NCBI RefSeq assembly: GCF_006442545.2
Contig: NZ_CP083952.1
Span: 1,364,001 to 1,428,000 of the forward strand
From: Mesorhizobium sp. B2-1-8
GTDB taxonomy: Bacteria; Pseudomonadota; Alphaproteobacteria; Rhizobiales; Rhizobiaceae
DNA length: 64,000 nucleotides
Direction of reading: 5' to 3'
Part shown: one piece after another, positions 49,592 to 54,412 of the stretch
Layout: every line of letters starts with the position of its first letter
Numbering within the stretch: the first letter of the stretch is position 1
The notes under the pieces: model-generated
Databases searched by the model: none
What the model was told of the DNA's origin: nothing
What the model saw: only the letters and a program-made list of their open reading frames with translations
Program-made: the position numbers and the translations under genes

Positions 49592-49732
49592 ATGAACCCG
49601 ATCCGCGCTTTCCGTAACTGGCGCATGTACAACGAGACCGTTCGCGAACTGAACCGCCTCAACGCACGCCAGCTCAGCGACCTCGGCATCAACCGCGGCG
49701 ACATCGAACGGATCGCCCGTCAGGCGACCTGA
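49592..49732 (+). CDS. DUF1127 small protein
   Basis: A 46-residue basic peptide MNPIRAFRNWRMYNETVREL, NRLNARQLSDLGINRGDIER, IARQAT. The closing motif RQLxDLGInRxDIxxIAR defines DUF1127, a family of small Arg-rich alphaproteobacterial proteins; some members bind RNA or influence phosphate and carbon metabolism in Agrobacterium (recalled). GGAGGA precedes the ATG. A terminator follows, so it is monocistronic. Confidence 0.92.
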   Translation: MNPIRAFRNWRMYNETVRELNRLNARQLSDLGINRGDIERIARQAT

Positions 49733-49840: not shown

Positions 49841-50081
49841 TGGGGGCAGAAAAAATAGTGGCAGAGGCAATCGTGCCGTCGCTATCGGGCACAAGGGCGA
49901 ACCCTGGATGGAGGCGGCGGCAAGCGCCAACATCACCGTGAAGACCGGATGAACCTATCTCGAACGGATACTCGCCAAGACCGGAACACGCCAACAGAGC
50001 CAACTTGTCGCGCTGCTCAAGGGCACGGAACCGTTCCGGTAACTGCCGGTTCGCGGTTTCCGGTGGGCTTCTCCAAAAACA

Positions 50082-50168
50082 TTGCGAAACAGGCAGGGAA
50101 CGGTTATACAGGCCCCGAATTTCCCATTTTGGTGGCTCTAAACCACCGCCCGCGCGGGAACGCGGGCG
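50082..50168 (+). promoter_or_regulatory. candidate promoter and structured leader of trcR
   Basis: TTGCGA (50082-50087) and TTATAC (50104-50109) are separated by 16 bp. Downstream, GGTGG/CCACC (50131-50147) and CGCCCGCG/CGCGGGCG (50147-50168) can form two consecutive hairpins that end about 20 bp before the ATG. No T tract follows, so these look like leader structures rather than a terminator. Confidence 0.45.
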
Positions 50169-50188
50169 AACGAGAAGGATTTTTAAAA

Positions 50189-50884
50189 ATGGCCAATACG
50201 CTGCTGATGCCCAAGGCGACCGCCGTCTGGCTGGTCGACAACACCGCGCTTTCCTTCGAGCAGATCGCGCAGTTCTGCGGGCTGCATCCGCTCGAGGTCA
50301 AGGCGATCGCCGACGGCGAATCGGCGCAAGGCATCAAGGGCATGGACCCGATCATGACCGGTCAACTGACCCGCGACGAGATCGCGCGCGCCGAGAAAGA
50401 CCCGAACCAGCGCCTGAAGCTTTCCGACCCCAAGGTGCGGGTGCCGGAATCCAAGCGCAAGGGTCCGCGCTACACGCCGCTGTCGAAGCGCCAGGACCGG
50501 CCGAACGCCATCCTGTGGCTGGTGCGTAATCATCCCGAACTCAAGGACGCGCAGATTTCGCGCCTCGTCGGCACCACCAAGTCGACGATCGAGCAGATCC
50601 GCGAACGCAAGCACTGGAATTCGGCCAATCTGCAGCCGATGGACCCGGTGACGCTGGGCCTAGCCTCGCAGATCGACCTCGACATGGAAGTCAACCGCGC
50701 CTCGCGGGGTCGCGAACAGGCGCAGCCGGTCGGCGACACGCTGCTGCCGGCGGCATTGACCGAGCGGCTGGTACCAGCGCCGGAGAAGCCGAAGGACGAG
50801 GACGCGGAGCTCGACGCCAACGCCGTCTTCGCCAAGCTGTCGGCGCTGAAGTCGAAGGATACCGACACGGACGACGAGGAGTAG
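50189..50884 (+). CDS. trcR: cell cycle transcriptional regulator TrcR-type (DUF1013) protein
   Basis: A 231-residue protein beginning MANTLLMPKATAVWLVDNTA, then LSFEQIAQFCGLHPLEVKAI, the conserved N-terminal helix-turn-helix of DUF1013. A second helix-turn-helix-like block is NAILWLVRNHPELKDAQISR then LVGTTKSTIEQIRERKHWN. The C-terminal 60 residues are acidic and variable. In Caulobacter this family is an RNA-polymerase-associated regulator of cell-cycle genes (recalled). ATG at 50189; the open frame upstream crosses the leader and is not used. Confidence 0.9.
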   Translation: MANTLLMPKATAVWLVDNTALSFEQIAQFCGLHPLEVKAIADGESAQGIKGMDPIMTGQLTRDEIARAEKDPNQRLKLSDPKVRVPESKRKGPRYTPLSKRQDRPNAILWLVRNHPELKDAQISRLVGTTKSTIEQIRERKHWNSANLQPMDPVTLGLASQIDLDMEVNRASRGREQAQPVGDTLLPAALTERLVPAPEKPKDEDAELDANAVFAKLSALKSKDTDTDDEE

Positions 50885-51085: not shown

Positions 51086-51805
51086 TCAGCTTCGCGCCGC
51101 GCGGTCCGGCGCCATGCCGTAATCCTCGCTGCGCTCCACCGCCCGGTAGAAATCGGCAAGCTGCTTGCCGCGTTCCGGCTTGAAGATGCGCCCTGCGATG
51201 ACCACAGAGGCGATGCGGTCGATGCGGAAGGCGCGGAAATCATCGCGCATCTCACACCAGGCGACCAGCGTCCACACCTTGCCCCAGAACCACAGGCCGA
51301 GCGGCCTGATATCGCGCGCGGTGCCGCGGCCGGCTTCATCCGAGTAGTCGATGGTCAGCACCTGGCGCTTTTCGACCGCGCGTTCGATCAGATCGATCGC
51401 CTCGCGGGCGGCGTCGCTGACCACCCACATCGGCGTATGGATCTCGGTGCGGGCGATGCGGTCCTTTTCTGCATCGGGCAACACGGCACCGATCTTGACC
51501 AGCGCCTCGTCGGCGGCCCGCGCCATCGCGGCGCCGCCAAAGGCACGCACCATTCGCGCGCCGGCGACCAGCGCCACGATCTCGTCACGCGTGAACATCA
51601 GCGGTGGAAGGTCGAAACCCTCCCTCATCATGTAGCCAACGCCGGCCTCGCCGTCGATCGGCACGCCCGTCGACTGCAGGTCGGCTATGTCGCGATAGAT
51701 GGTTCGCTCGGAAACCTCGAGCCACGTGCCGAGCTTCTGGGCGGTGACCAGACGGCCACCACGCAGATGCTGCACGATCTGAAAGAGCCTGTCGGCGCGG
51801 CGCAT
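51086..51805 (-). CDS. YafY/WYL-domain transcriptional regulator
   Basis: A 239-residue regulator. The N-terminal HTH is RRADRLFQIVQHLRGGRLVT, then AQKLGTWLEVSERTIYRDIA (DeoR/HTH_11 type). The WYL domain follows, with RPLGLWFWGKVWTLVAWCEM and DFRAFRIDRIASV. Likely controls itself and neighbours through the palindromes at 52334 and 53235. ATG at 51803-51805; the frame opens 23 codons earlier without support. Downstream of the 135-residue hypothetical gene in the same direction. Confidence 0.9.
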   Translation of the reverse strand: MRRADRLFQIVQHLRGGRLVTAQKLGTWLEVSERTIYRDIADLQSTGVPIDGEAGVGYMMREGFDLPPLMFTRDEIVALVAGARMVRAFGGAAMARAADEALVKIGAVLPDAEKDRIARTEIHTPMWVVSDAAREAIDLIERAVEKRQVLTIDYSDEAGRGTARDIRPLGLWFWGKVWTLVAWCEMRDDFRAFRIDRIASVVIAGRIFKPERGKQLADFYRAVERSEDYGMAPDRAARS

Positions 51806-51877: not shown

Positions 51878-52285
51878 TTACGGTTTCAGCCCTTCGCGCT
51901 TGCGCTGCGCGGCGACGAAATCCGCGCCGAAGGATAGTTTACTCGTTGTCGGCGTCGTCGCATCGAGCACGCGCCAGAAGGGTGCGATGTCGCGGAGAGT
52001 CATCCCGCGCTCAAGGTCCTCATTGGCGGCTTCGGCGACCGTGCGCAGATGATAACCTATGGTGACCGGGCATGTCACTTCGGCGCCGTGCTCGATGGCA
52101 AGGGCCGTGCGCAACGCGCGGACATCCATCTCGACGCCTTCGGGAATCGAGCGGATGAAATCGTCGACCTGGCGCGCGGTCGGCACCAGCATGGGCTGGC
52201 CCTCGATGACATCTCCCACCGTGCGCGGCGTTGATTTCACGCCGTTGATGCCTGGTGTGTTCAGCCTGTCGTTCCAACTCTTCAT
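51878..52285 (-). CDS. conserved hypothetical protein, possible alkyltransferase-like relative
   Basis: A 135-residue protein. The core DVRALRTALAIEHGAEVTCP, VTIGYHLRTVAEAANEDLER and PFWRVLDATTPT then AAQRKREGL is recalled from many hypothetical proteins. The order CP..PFWRVL..QR..EGL faintly resembles the end of MGMT / alkyltransferase-like proteins, but there is no PCHRV motif, so that link is weak. A 26-bp palindrome lies 49 bp upstream of the ATG (52283-52285). It forms an operon with the WYL regulator, 72 bp downstream. Confidence 0.7.
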   Translation of the reverse strand: MKSWNDRLNTPGINGVKSTPRTVGDVIEGQPMLVPTARQVDDFIRSIPEGVEMDVRALRTALAIEHGAEVTCPVTIGYHLRTVAEAANEDLERGMTLRDIAPFWRVLDATTPTTSKLSFGADFVAAQRKREGLKP

Positions 52286-52333
52286 CGATCGTCCTCTCGG
52301 CCGGCCAGGCGCATCATCCCACCATCGCACGCA

Positions 52334-52359
52334 CCTCCTGACAGCATACTGTCAGGAGG
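52334..52359. promoter_or_regulatory. 26-bp perfect palindrome B upstream of the hypothetical/WYL operon
   Basis: CCTCCTGACAG and CTGTCAGGAGG are 11-bp inverted arms around CATA. The site overlaps the last codons of the DJ-1/PfpI gene and lies 49-74 bp before the next start codon. The flanking GCAC is also shared with the second copy at 53235. Confidence 0.75.
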
Positions 52360-52942
52360 CTTCAGCATACTCCTTGGCGAATAGCGTCCGCATCTGCGCG
52401 AGTTGGCTGCCTTTCTCGGGATAGAGCGTCTGCAGGAAGGCAAGGGCAAAGGTGCCCGGTGCCGAACCCGGCGCGGACACGATCTTGCCGTCAGCCACGG
52501 CATGCGGCACATCCTGATAGTTCAGGTCGCCGGCATAGCCGGCTTCGTGACCGTTGATCCAGTCACGGCCATTGCTGGTGTGCCTGGCGTTCTCGAACAT
52601 GCCGGCGCGGGCCAGCGCAAGCGTTCCCGCACAGATGCCGCCAACGACACCGCCGCGCCTGGCGACCGCCGTCAGCAGTTCGGAAGCATCCGGCGGCGCC
52701 TTGCCCGCCCACCGGTCGGAACCGATGACGGCCATGGCATCGAGATCGGTATTCTCATCGGCGTCTGCCGAGCGATCCGGCGTCAGCCGAAAGCCGCTGA
52801 TTCCGGTCACCGGCTTGCCTTCGGGCGTAATCGACACGGCGCGCGCGCCGAACCATTCGACCGCCGAGGCCGCCAGCAGCCCGTATTCCCAGTCGGCAAA
52901 ACCTTCGACGAACAGAAAGCCGATTGTCTTCTGATCGGGCAT
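52352..52942 (-). CDS. DJ-1/PfpI family glutamine amidotransferase-like protein
   Basis: A 196-residue class I glutamine amidotransferase-like protein. The nucleophile elbow is GGICAGTLALARAG with Cys, and residues such as FLFVEGFADWEYGLL begin the fold. Related proteins act as stress-response or regulatory factors, and some have glyoxalase activity. ATG at 52940-52942. It probably shares a transcript with the small DUF1127-like gene 83 bp upstream. A half-site CTGACAG at 52985-52991 lies between the two. Confidence 0.88.
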   Translation of the reverse strand: MPDQKTIGFLFVEGFADWEYGLLAASAVEWFGARAVSITPEGKPVTGISGFRLTPDRSADADENTDLDAMAVIGSDRWAGKAPPDASELLTAVARRGGVVGGICAGTLALARAGMFENARHTSNGRDWINGHEAGYAGDLNYQDVPHAVADGKIVSAPGSAPGTFALAFLQTLYPEKGSQLAQMRTLFAKEYAEAS

Positions 52943-53025
52943 GAGTTCGCTCCATCCCTCGCGCGCGGATCTGATATCTGGATGCTGACAGGTTAGCATC
53001 CAACCGCCGCGTTGAAAATTCTGCC

Positions 53026-53193
53026 TCAATTGCCGTGATGGCGGCGCTCGGCATACATGTCAGGCCAGCCGATATCCTTGCGGATGTCGGCGGGCAGCGC
53101 GTTCATGAACCGCTGGGTCCGGATCTCGTTGCGCATCGTGCGGATCTTGCCGACATAGTGCTGCATGCCGCGCAGAATGGTAAAACCGTTCAT
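53026..53193 (-). CDS. small DUF1127-like protein
   Basis: A 55-residue basic peptide MNGFTILRGMQHYVGKIRTM, RNEIRTQRFMNALPADIRKD, IGWPDMYAERRHHGN. The RTQRFMNALPADIRKDIGWP segment has the layout of DUF1127 (hydrophobic-basic, then LP..I.KDIG). ATG at 53191-53193 follows AGGAGA. It starts 42 bp from the second palindrome. Too short for many gene finders. Confidence 0.75.
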   Translation of the reverse strand: MNGFTILRGMQHYVGKIRTMRNEIRTQRFMNALPADIRKDIGWPDMYAERRHHGN

Positions 53194-53234
53194 GACCAAT
53201 CTCCTCTCTCTGACTGGAGACAGTATCGCACACC

Positions 53235-53260
53235 CCTCCTGACAGCAGTCTGTCAGGAGG
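53235..53260. promoter_or_regulatory. 26-bp perfect palindrome A upstream of the DUF1127-like/PfpI genes
   Basis: Arms CCTCCTGACAG and CTGTCAGGAGG identical to the copy at 52334-52359, here around CAGT. It is 42-67 bp before the start codon of the small gene, nearly the same distance as for palindrome B. Confidence 0.75.
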
Positions 53261-53458: not shown

Positions 53459-54412
53459 ATGAGCCTGCAACTGATGGGAATTCACCATCTGACCGCCATC
53501 ACCGCCAATGCGCCCGGTAATCTTCACTTCTACACGAGGGTGCTGGGGCTGCGGCTGGTCAAGAAGACGGTGAACCAGGATGACACATCGGCCTACCACC
53601 TCTTTTATGCCGACGGCGAGGCAACGCCGGGTACCGACCTCACCTTCTTCGACTGGCCGGTCGGCCGCGAACGGCGCGGCACGCACAGCATCGCGCGGAC
53701 CAGCCTCAGGGTCGGCAGCCGGGAGAGCCTTGCCTGGTGGAAGCAGCACCTTGCCAGCGAAGGCATCGTGACAGGAGAGATTGCTGATATCGGCGGCTAC
53801 TCCAGCCTGGATTTCGAAGACCCCGAGGGCCAGCGTCTGCGGCTCGTCAGCGATGGCGGCAAGGGCGGCAGCCATCCCTGGGCGCAGAGCCCGGTGCCGG
53901 CGGAGCATCAGATCCGCGGGCTCGGGCCGATCGTCATCAGTGTTCCCGACATCACCAACACCGAGGCGGTGCTGACCAGCGTGATGAACATGCGTAAGGC
54001 CCGCGACTATGCTTCGCCGGACGGTGAGGGCCAGGTCCACGTCTTCGAAATGGGCGCGGGCGGGCCGGCGGCGGAGCTTCATGTAGCCGTGCAGCCTGGG
54101 ATTGCGCCGGCTAGGCAAGGCGCCGGTGCGGTTCATCATGTTGCCTTCAGGGCGCCCGACCAGGAGACGTTGCATCAATGGACGGCACGCCTGGCCGAAT
54201 TCCGGCTGCCATCGAGCGGCGAGGTCGAGCGCTATTACTTCCGCTCGCTCTATTTTCGCGAGCCGAACGGCATCCTGTTCGAGATCGCCACCGACGGGCC
54301 GGGGTTCACCGCCGACGAGCCGCTGGAAACGCTCGGCGAAAGCCTGGCCCTGCCGCCGTTCCTCGAGGCAAAACGCGCTTCGATCGAGGCTGGCCTCAAA
54401 CCGCTGAAGTAG
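53459..54412 (+). CDS. VOC family ring-cleaving dioxygenase-like protein
   Basis: A 317-residue two-module vicinal oxygen chelate protein. The first metal ligand region is [14 protein letters not shown]; the second module has [20 protein letters not shown] and the third ligand region [19 protein letters not shown]. The layout matches the MhqO/LinE-type hydroquinone dioxygenases. Substrate not known. ATG follows GGGAGACGACC. Monocistronic, with a terminator after it. Confidence 0.87.

Follow-up and report, generated by a model that had tools for sequence, protein, structure and literature searches.

Palindromic promoter-linked sites that accompany a short WYL regulator in Mesorhizobium and its family

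Two nearly identical palindromes precede neighbouring transcription units in the genome of Mesorhizobium sp. B2-1-8, and one of these units encodes a regulator of the WYL type. The question raised by this arrangement is whether the palindromes are binding sites of that regulator and, if so, what might be controlled from them. The window referred to here is the whole stretch of DNA that was analysed, 64,000 nucleotides in length. Comparisons with related genomes support the view that the palindromes are linked to promoters and occur together with orthologs of the WYL protein encoded here. We further consider it reasonably likely, from the sequence comparisons described below, that they are operators of this regulator and that it activates transcription of a small set of repair and detoxification genes.

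The palindromes and the genes around them

The palindromes precede two minus-strand units, one with genes for a 55-aa protein and a DJ-1/PfpI protein and the other with genes for a 135-aa protein and the WYL regulator. The features of the locus are as follows.

53235..53260, minus strand: palindrome 2, candidate operator of the 55-aa/PfpI unit (exact match; orthologous site across the genus; oriented promoter alignment)
53225..53230, minus strand: predicted extended -10, TGCGAT, 7 bases after the 20-mer core CCTGACA-N6-TGTCAGG (5/6 matches to TGCTAT)
53026..53193, minus strand: small protein of 55 aa (open frame; DUF1127-like by resemblance only)
52352..52942, minus strand: DJ-1/PfpI family protein, 196 aa (Pfam DJ-1_PfpI, 8e-17)
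52334..52359, minus strand: palindrome 1, candidate operator of the 135-aa/WYL unit (exact match; orthologous site in relatives)
52324..52329, minus strand: predicted extended -10, TGCGAT, at the same offset of 7 from the palindrome 1 core (5/6 matches to TGCTAT)
51878..52285, minus strand: protein of 135 aa, unassigned to any family (without a match in Pfam or NCBIfam)
51086..51805, minus strand: WYL regulator, 239 aa, with HTH_11 (residues 6-58) and WYL (136-201) by Pfam; candidate binder of both palindromes

Read on the minus strand, palindrome 2 is CCTCCTGACAG-ACTG-CTGTCAGGAGG and palindrome 1 is CCTCCTGACAG-TATG-CTGTCAGGAGG. An earlier note on this DNA had described two 26-mers of the form CCTCCTGACAG-N4-CTGTCAGGAGG that differ in their four central bases alone, and both were located, at 52334-52359 and 53235-53260. 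The pair is far beyond chance; 100 shuffles of the window gave zero matches to the 26-mer with 3 mismatches allowed. The distances to the start codons given in that note, 49-74 and 42-67 bp, came out the same when recomputed, for the ATG at 52285 (135-aa protein) and the ATG at 53193 (55-aa protein), respectively. The stop codon of the PfpI gene lies inside palindrome 1. A half-site, CTGACAG, said to lie ahead of the PfpI gene, is present in the window but not conserved: neither it nor its complement was found within 75 bp 5' of PfpI in any of 39 relatives (the gene was found by script in 39 of 80). Because of this lack of conservation, the half-site is probably a chance occurrence. The PfpI gene and the 55-aa gene probably form one unit.

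Pfam agrees with the DJ-1/PfpI identity proposed for the 196-aa product and, likewise, finds both WYL and HTH_11 in the local regulator that had been placed in one of the units; it finds no DUF1127 match in the 55-aa peptide that had been called DUF1127-like. A true DUF1127 gene lies 3 kb off, at 49592-49729 on the plus strand (Pfam 4.8e-15), and adjoins a homolog of the cell-cycle regulator TrcR (49949-50881), which neighbours the WYL locus in several relatives as well. On the far side of palindrome 2, and beginning about 200 bp beyond it, the plus strand encodes a two-domain VOC (extradiol-dioxygenase-like) protein at 53459-54412. Of the 622 relatives of the 135-aa protein, the 120 among the matches listed carry no Pfam domain; a distant match (31%) is found on a plasmid of Rhizobium sp. 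007. One stretch of it looked like MGMT/ATL (O6-alkylguanine transferase) proteins, and this candidate relationship was rejected: DNA_binding_1 was unmatched in Pfam up to E 10, a profile comparison gave a probability of 0.3%, and no MGMT appeared among the PDB profile-search matches.

The regulator itself scores above the curated cut-offs for both of its domains (HTH_11, 59 bits with a cut-off of 25; WYL, 64.9 bits with a cut-off of 21.8). Its WYL match ends at residue 201, leaving 38 residues, too short for a complete WCX domain, and it has W-T-L where the name of the domain has W-Y-L. Besides this gene the genome has just one other WYL gene, on the same contig and about 0.76 Mb away.

Distribution of the sites and their targets

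Searching for the palindrome elsewhere, as the earlier note had proposed, revealed a site before uvrB in the same genome and further sites across the genus and the family. Within Mesorhizobium, at least one site is present at all 80 relative loci with orthologs at 97-100% identity, and both sites at 78 of them. When up to one mismatch is allowed, the 24-mer CTCCTGACAGN4CTGTCAGGAG is found in 142 of 146 genomes of the genus, with 0 to 5 copies per genome over the whole set, and the reversed pattern that served as control in none of the 146. The four genomes that lack the 24-mer have a WYL ortholog at 88-94% identity and, beside it, weaker sites with one to three mismatches. The spacing between the two sites falls into two groups, 292-376 bp with no frame of more than 150 aa between them (38/78 loci) and 848-962 bp (40/78), 38 of the latter having such a frame, a pattern suggesting that PfpI has been gained and lost between the sites while the putative operators stay.

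For the wider family, 297 genomes were drawn evenly from the same GTDB family, with a WYL ortholog defined by E <=1e-70 and the strict motif as CCTGACAN6TGTCAGG. The motif is found in 126 of the 142 ortholog carriers versus 8 of the 155 non-carriers, and its reversed form in 5 of the 297 genomes; the exceptions are thus 16 carriers without the strict motif and 8 non-carriers with it. Genome-level counts of this kind are inflated by relatedness, and a count of one genome per genus (108 genera) was therefore made, in which sites are present in 42 of 51 genera with the ortholog versus 3 of 57 without. Each of 46 WYL loci (L146-L191) has a site within two mismatches of CCTGACAGN4CTGTCAGG.

The core CTGACAG-N4-CTGTCAG occurs exactly three times in the 6.87-Mb genome to which the window belongs, at the two window sites and before uvrB. 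With up to two mismatches it occurs at 33 places, versus 17 for the reversed pattern, and most of the weak matches are therefore ascribed to chance; sites within or at the ends of genes (in or near L008, L009 and L010) were rejected on the same view. A sequence-only model built from 31 sites was used to scan this genome and two genomes that lack the ortholog. At E <0.01 it finds six places in the former: the two window sites, uvrB, an XRE/desaturase pair, a 133-aa VOC protein and an ArsR/MFS gap. In this last region, at C1:2408052-2408071 (L012), a perfect TGCTAT stands at the fixed offset described below, before an MFS transporter gene divergent from an ArsR-type regulator gene. As to the genomes without the ortholog, the best match in one (G264) has an E of 0.07, and the other (G378) has one good match, at 6.5e-5, which is an unexplained exception.

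Candidate targets were read from 50 motif loci, namely 30 that were listed and 20 picked from about 23 further dispersed ones, with genes called by script, and the counts that follow refer to the matches listed. UvrB, whose identity is above the NCBIfam cut-off and agrees with Pfam, appears in 10 of the 50 and glutathione S-transferase (GST; Pfam on three) in 7. The WYL gene itself is among the targets, and in several genera a VOC protein (Pfam on one) is encoded directly before it. A 154-aa protein of no family appears in 4 loci (L209, L227, L232, L233); the name "DUF1579-like" was dropped for it, since neither Pfam nor NCBIfam gave a match. In 2 of the 50, an XRE regulator gene and a fatty acid desaturase gene diverge from each other, and SnoaL-like, MATE, GMP synthase and other genes are single or double cases. 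The stress or repair regulon envisaged in the earlier note would thus include repair (uvrB) and detoxification genes, and had been drawn too narrowly, with at least four more sites in the genome of the window itself.

Two kinds of promoter arrangement

Aligned in the direction of the gene, the non-uvrB sites have the consensus CTCCTGACA-N6-TGTCAGGAG-N5-TGCNAT. Twenty-five of 60 oriented sites were dropped before the count (uvrB 16, SnoaL 2, guaA 2, L206, L208, MATE, ArsR and MFS). Among the remaining sites, TGCTAT is matched at four or more of its six positions, 7 bases after the 20-mer, in 24 of 35, and at any other offset in at most 4 of 35, the -10 and core motifs having been picked after inspection of the sites. 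In a second set, 46 sites from 25 WYL loci of other genera, the -10 stands at the fixed offset in 40 on the gene side and in none on the opposite side, the best other offset giving 13. When the nine dropped non-uvrB sites are scored at the fixed offset, the MFS site matches at 6/6 and the ArsR site at 4/6, with the other seven at 0 to 3; a -10 there is absent from the SnoaL, GMP synthase, MATE, L206 and L208 sites, and the desaturase/XRE sites mostly fail as well. SnoaL genes are weak candidates for targets: their sites, in the genome of the window and in L204, both lack a -10 at the fixed offset, and the former was missed by the model.

If TGCNAT is an extended -10, the 20-mer spans about -42 to -23 and its N6 occupies the position of the -35 hexamer. 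On average the N6 agrees with TTGACA at 0.71 of the 6 positions, the range over all 35 scored sites being 0 to 2 of 6. It appears, then, that at most non-uvrB sites the palindrome stands in place of a -35 box, the start sites being predicted ones.

The uvrB sites differ in their geometry, and no -10 is found in them at the offset of 7 after the 20-mer. They are accompanied by a core promoter, CTTTCC-N18-CATATT-N6-ATGG, that is conserved in genomes without the ortholog as well and that lies at C1:2328147-2328187 (L003/L011) in the genome of the window. Its 18-base spacer is present in 32 of 36 distinct uvrB loci, the remaining four being without the CTTYYY form. CATATT lies 12 nt from the ATG in 16 of 16 loci, and because of this short distance the uvrB mRNA is probably leaderless. 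The centre of the palindrome is near -82 in 10 of the 16 loci, at -71 in 3 and at -93 or -94 in 3, positions that recall those of CRP class I sites.

Palindrome and uvrB core promoter occur together in 99 of the 297 family genomes, spread over 43 genera, and 96 of these genomes carry the ortholog. The lengths of the matches are 84-87 (17 genomes), 94-99 (69), 106-107 (11) and 77 and 82 (1 each), and thus cluster in three groups 10-11 bases apart, approximately a helical turn. In a helical-phase test, restricted by the search pattern to match lengths of 77 to 109, 14 of 24 genus-level deviant lengths fall no more than 1.6 bases from one turn, where 21% would be expected, with 77, 82, 87, 97 to 99 and some at 84 lying off the turn. 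The core promoter is found in 152 genomes (a few perhaps not uvrB), and the palindrome stands beside it in 78 of 97 WYL carriers versus 3 of 55 non-carriers; this contrast is the strongest single control because the gene and its core promoter are present in both groups. A uvrB site without a detected WYL ortholog is seen in G156, G233 and G334. The last of these genomes is 79% complete and G233 is in about 770 contigs, and G156 has no such excuse. The G156 genome is 99% complete and has the uvrB palindrome at the usual distance (G156:C90:16716-16811) with a distant WYL relative only (best E 1.1e-44); another binder or a recent loss of the ortholog is perhaps responsible.

The proposed regulator, its alternatives and known systems

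In the reading that we favor, a homodimer of the regulator would bind the palindrome. At the window sites and the GST, VOC and WYL operons it would compensate, like DriD, for the absent contact of sigma region 4 with a -35 element, and at uvrB it would act as an activator from an upstream position, keeping to one face of the helix. An activator role is suggested because the same operator overlaps the -35 of some genes and, at uvrB, is placed upstream in phase with the helix. By analogy, this proposed short WYL activator is probably damage-responsive. The least certain steps are that its WYL domain would respond to single-stranded DNA arising from damage, the signal of DriD and PafBC, and that the uvrB, PfpI, GST and VOC genes would rise together after genotoxic or electrophile stress. 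The fullest form of the proposal, for which we would claim somewhat less than an even chance, is that a WYL protein lacking WCX senses single-stranded DNA and activates two types of promoter with one operator, in a LexA-independent damage response that would be a homodimeric counterpart of PafBC.

The part most readily replaced is the ligand, which could be a reactive small molecule (glyoxal-type or another electrophile) in place of single-stranded DNA, with the circuit being a detoxification response in which uvrB repairs adducts. Detoxification targets (GST, VOC, PfpI, SnoaL-like) outnumber repair targets, so that the signal may be an electrophile, and Tyr196 of PafB has Thr179 as its counterpart in 23 of 23 orthologs. 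Set against this, R164, R187 and R191 are invariant in the same number of orthologs and have the spacing of R181, R204 and R208 of PafB, the arginines by which it binds single-stranded DNA. On balance we regard a small-molecule ligand as a serious possibility, if less likely than not.

It is unlikely that the WYL protein is a repressor that covers the promoter from -42 to -23 and is released by a small electrophile or a damaged nucleotide. The spacer and -35 region is a usual seat of repressors too, the TG of an extended -10 could permit a promoter to function without a -35, and one of the regulator's solved relatives, CapW, is a WYL protein that represses a defence system. A single-site repressor would do little near -71, -82 or -93 at uvrB, however, where the sites are in helix phase, and the non-consensus N6 in 35 of 35 scored sites suits an activator. 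Less probable again is a different binder with the WYL gene as a mere target. The best candidate, and the one compared with WYL, was the XRE-type regulator that shares its site with the fatty acid desaturase; a site stands in the divergent promoter of its own gene, and it is associated with sites by genus (42 of 57 genera with it versus 9 of 51 without). Where the two regulators differ in occurrence, however, the sites follow WYL, being present in 5 of the 6 genera that have WYL alone versus 1 of the 12 that have XRE alone, and this candidate was rejected; moreover, the WYL HTH, like the motif, hardly varies, as judged from 23 orthologs whose identity to the protein encoded in the window is 55-93%. 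That the palindromes are a transcription terminator, an RNA hairpin or the dispersed repeat unrelated to promoters that the earlier note had named as its refuting case is very improbable, for although they are perfect inverted repeats and the PfpI gene ends within palindrome 1, the sites keep a fixed distance to the -10 on the gene side alone, number 0 to 5 per genome in 146 genomes and are tied to the presence of the regulator.

An activator of this kind would mean that rhizobia and many of their relatives have a WYL damage response that includes a core nucleotide excision repair gene, and that DNA repair (uvrB) and detoxification are jointly wired across many genera of plant-associated and soil alphaproteobacteria. 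Literature searches, with subscription papers mostly outside their scope, returned no report joining uvrB, WYL and Alphaproteobacteria and none on LexA-independent control of uvrB in rhizobia; by title among the matches listed, none looked relevant for Mesorhizobium WYL and, searched by half-site, none dealt with the present regulator. The proposed damage-response circuit seems unstudied. With a putative operator, its 40-bp promoter consensus, a candidate regulator, a list of candidate targets and the natural series of helical phases seen at uvrB, the position rules of WYL activators and their ligand become directly testable.

Several known systems invite comparison. In the LexA/SOS system, uvr repair genes stand under a palindromic operator; unlike that case, no LexA box of the GTTCN7GTTC type (exact pattern only) is present in 16 uvrB loci from 250 bp upstream to 150 bp downstream of the palindrome. 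In Caulobacter and the actinobacteria, WYL proteins are known to direct damage responses that do not depend on SOS. PafBC of the actinobacteria, with its motif core TGTCRG, is the best match to the regulator among solved structures, and CapW also appears in that sequence search, with DriD not among the matches listed. PafBC is described as acting at -26; R181, R204 and R208 of PafB are required for binding single-stranded DNA, and the uvrB transcript is down 37% without PafBC (PMC11804915, PMC6789036, PMC5656591, PMC8223512). The two systems would share sigma70-type promoters without a -35, and the -26 point of action coincides with the downstream TGTCAG half-site here. Expression of uvrB depends on PafBC; here a uvrB site is conserved and tied to the presence of the regulator, which may control the gene. 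PafBC is a heterodimer on a non-palindromic motif, whereas here there are one gene and a palindrome.

SiwR of Mycobacterium smegmatis is described as a WYL activator with a 19-bp imperfect palindrome between -35 and -10; it needs the -26 region, is linked to genotoxic stress and has glyoxalase-like neighbours in some species (PMC10693628). Its known targets are adjacent DinB/YfiT-like genes only, whereas a dispersed regulon with uvrB is proposed here. For DriD, the literature describes a site centred on the -35 at a constant distance to the -10, a conserved G-14 and promoters with 1-2 of 6 matches at the -35, and a protein of 327 aa with a 3HB-WYL-WCX core that uses its WCX (residues 246-327) to dimerise (PMC12340889). 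The present system differs from DriD in its site (CTGAC-N8-GTCAG versus ATACGAC-N7-GTCGTAT), in its other target genes and in a regulator of 239 aa that, with 38 residues after the WYL match, lacks the WCX part of the core. It resembles DriD in having a WYL+HTH protein, an inverted repeat with GAC...GTC half-sites and repair genes among the putative targets and, for the non-uvrB class only and with start sites predicted, in a site that lies over a poor -35 at a constant distance to the -10. The best reading, by analogy, is that the regulator would act in the mode of Caulobacter DriD and mycobacterial PafBC, the claim extending to the mode of action and not to family membership.
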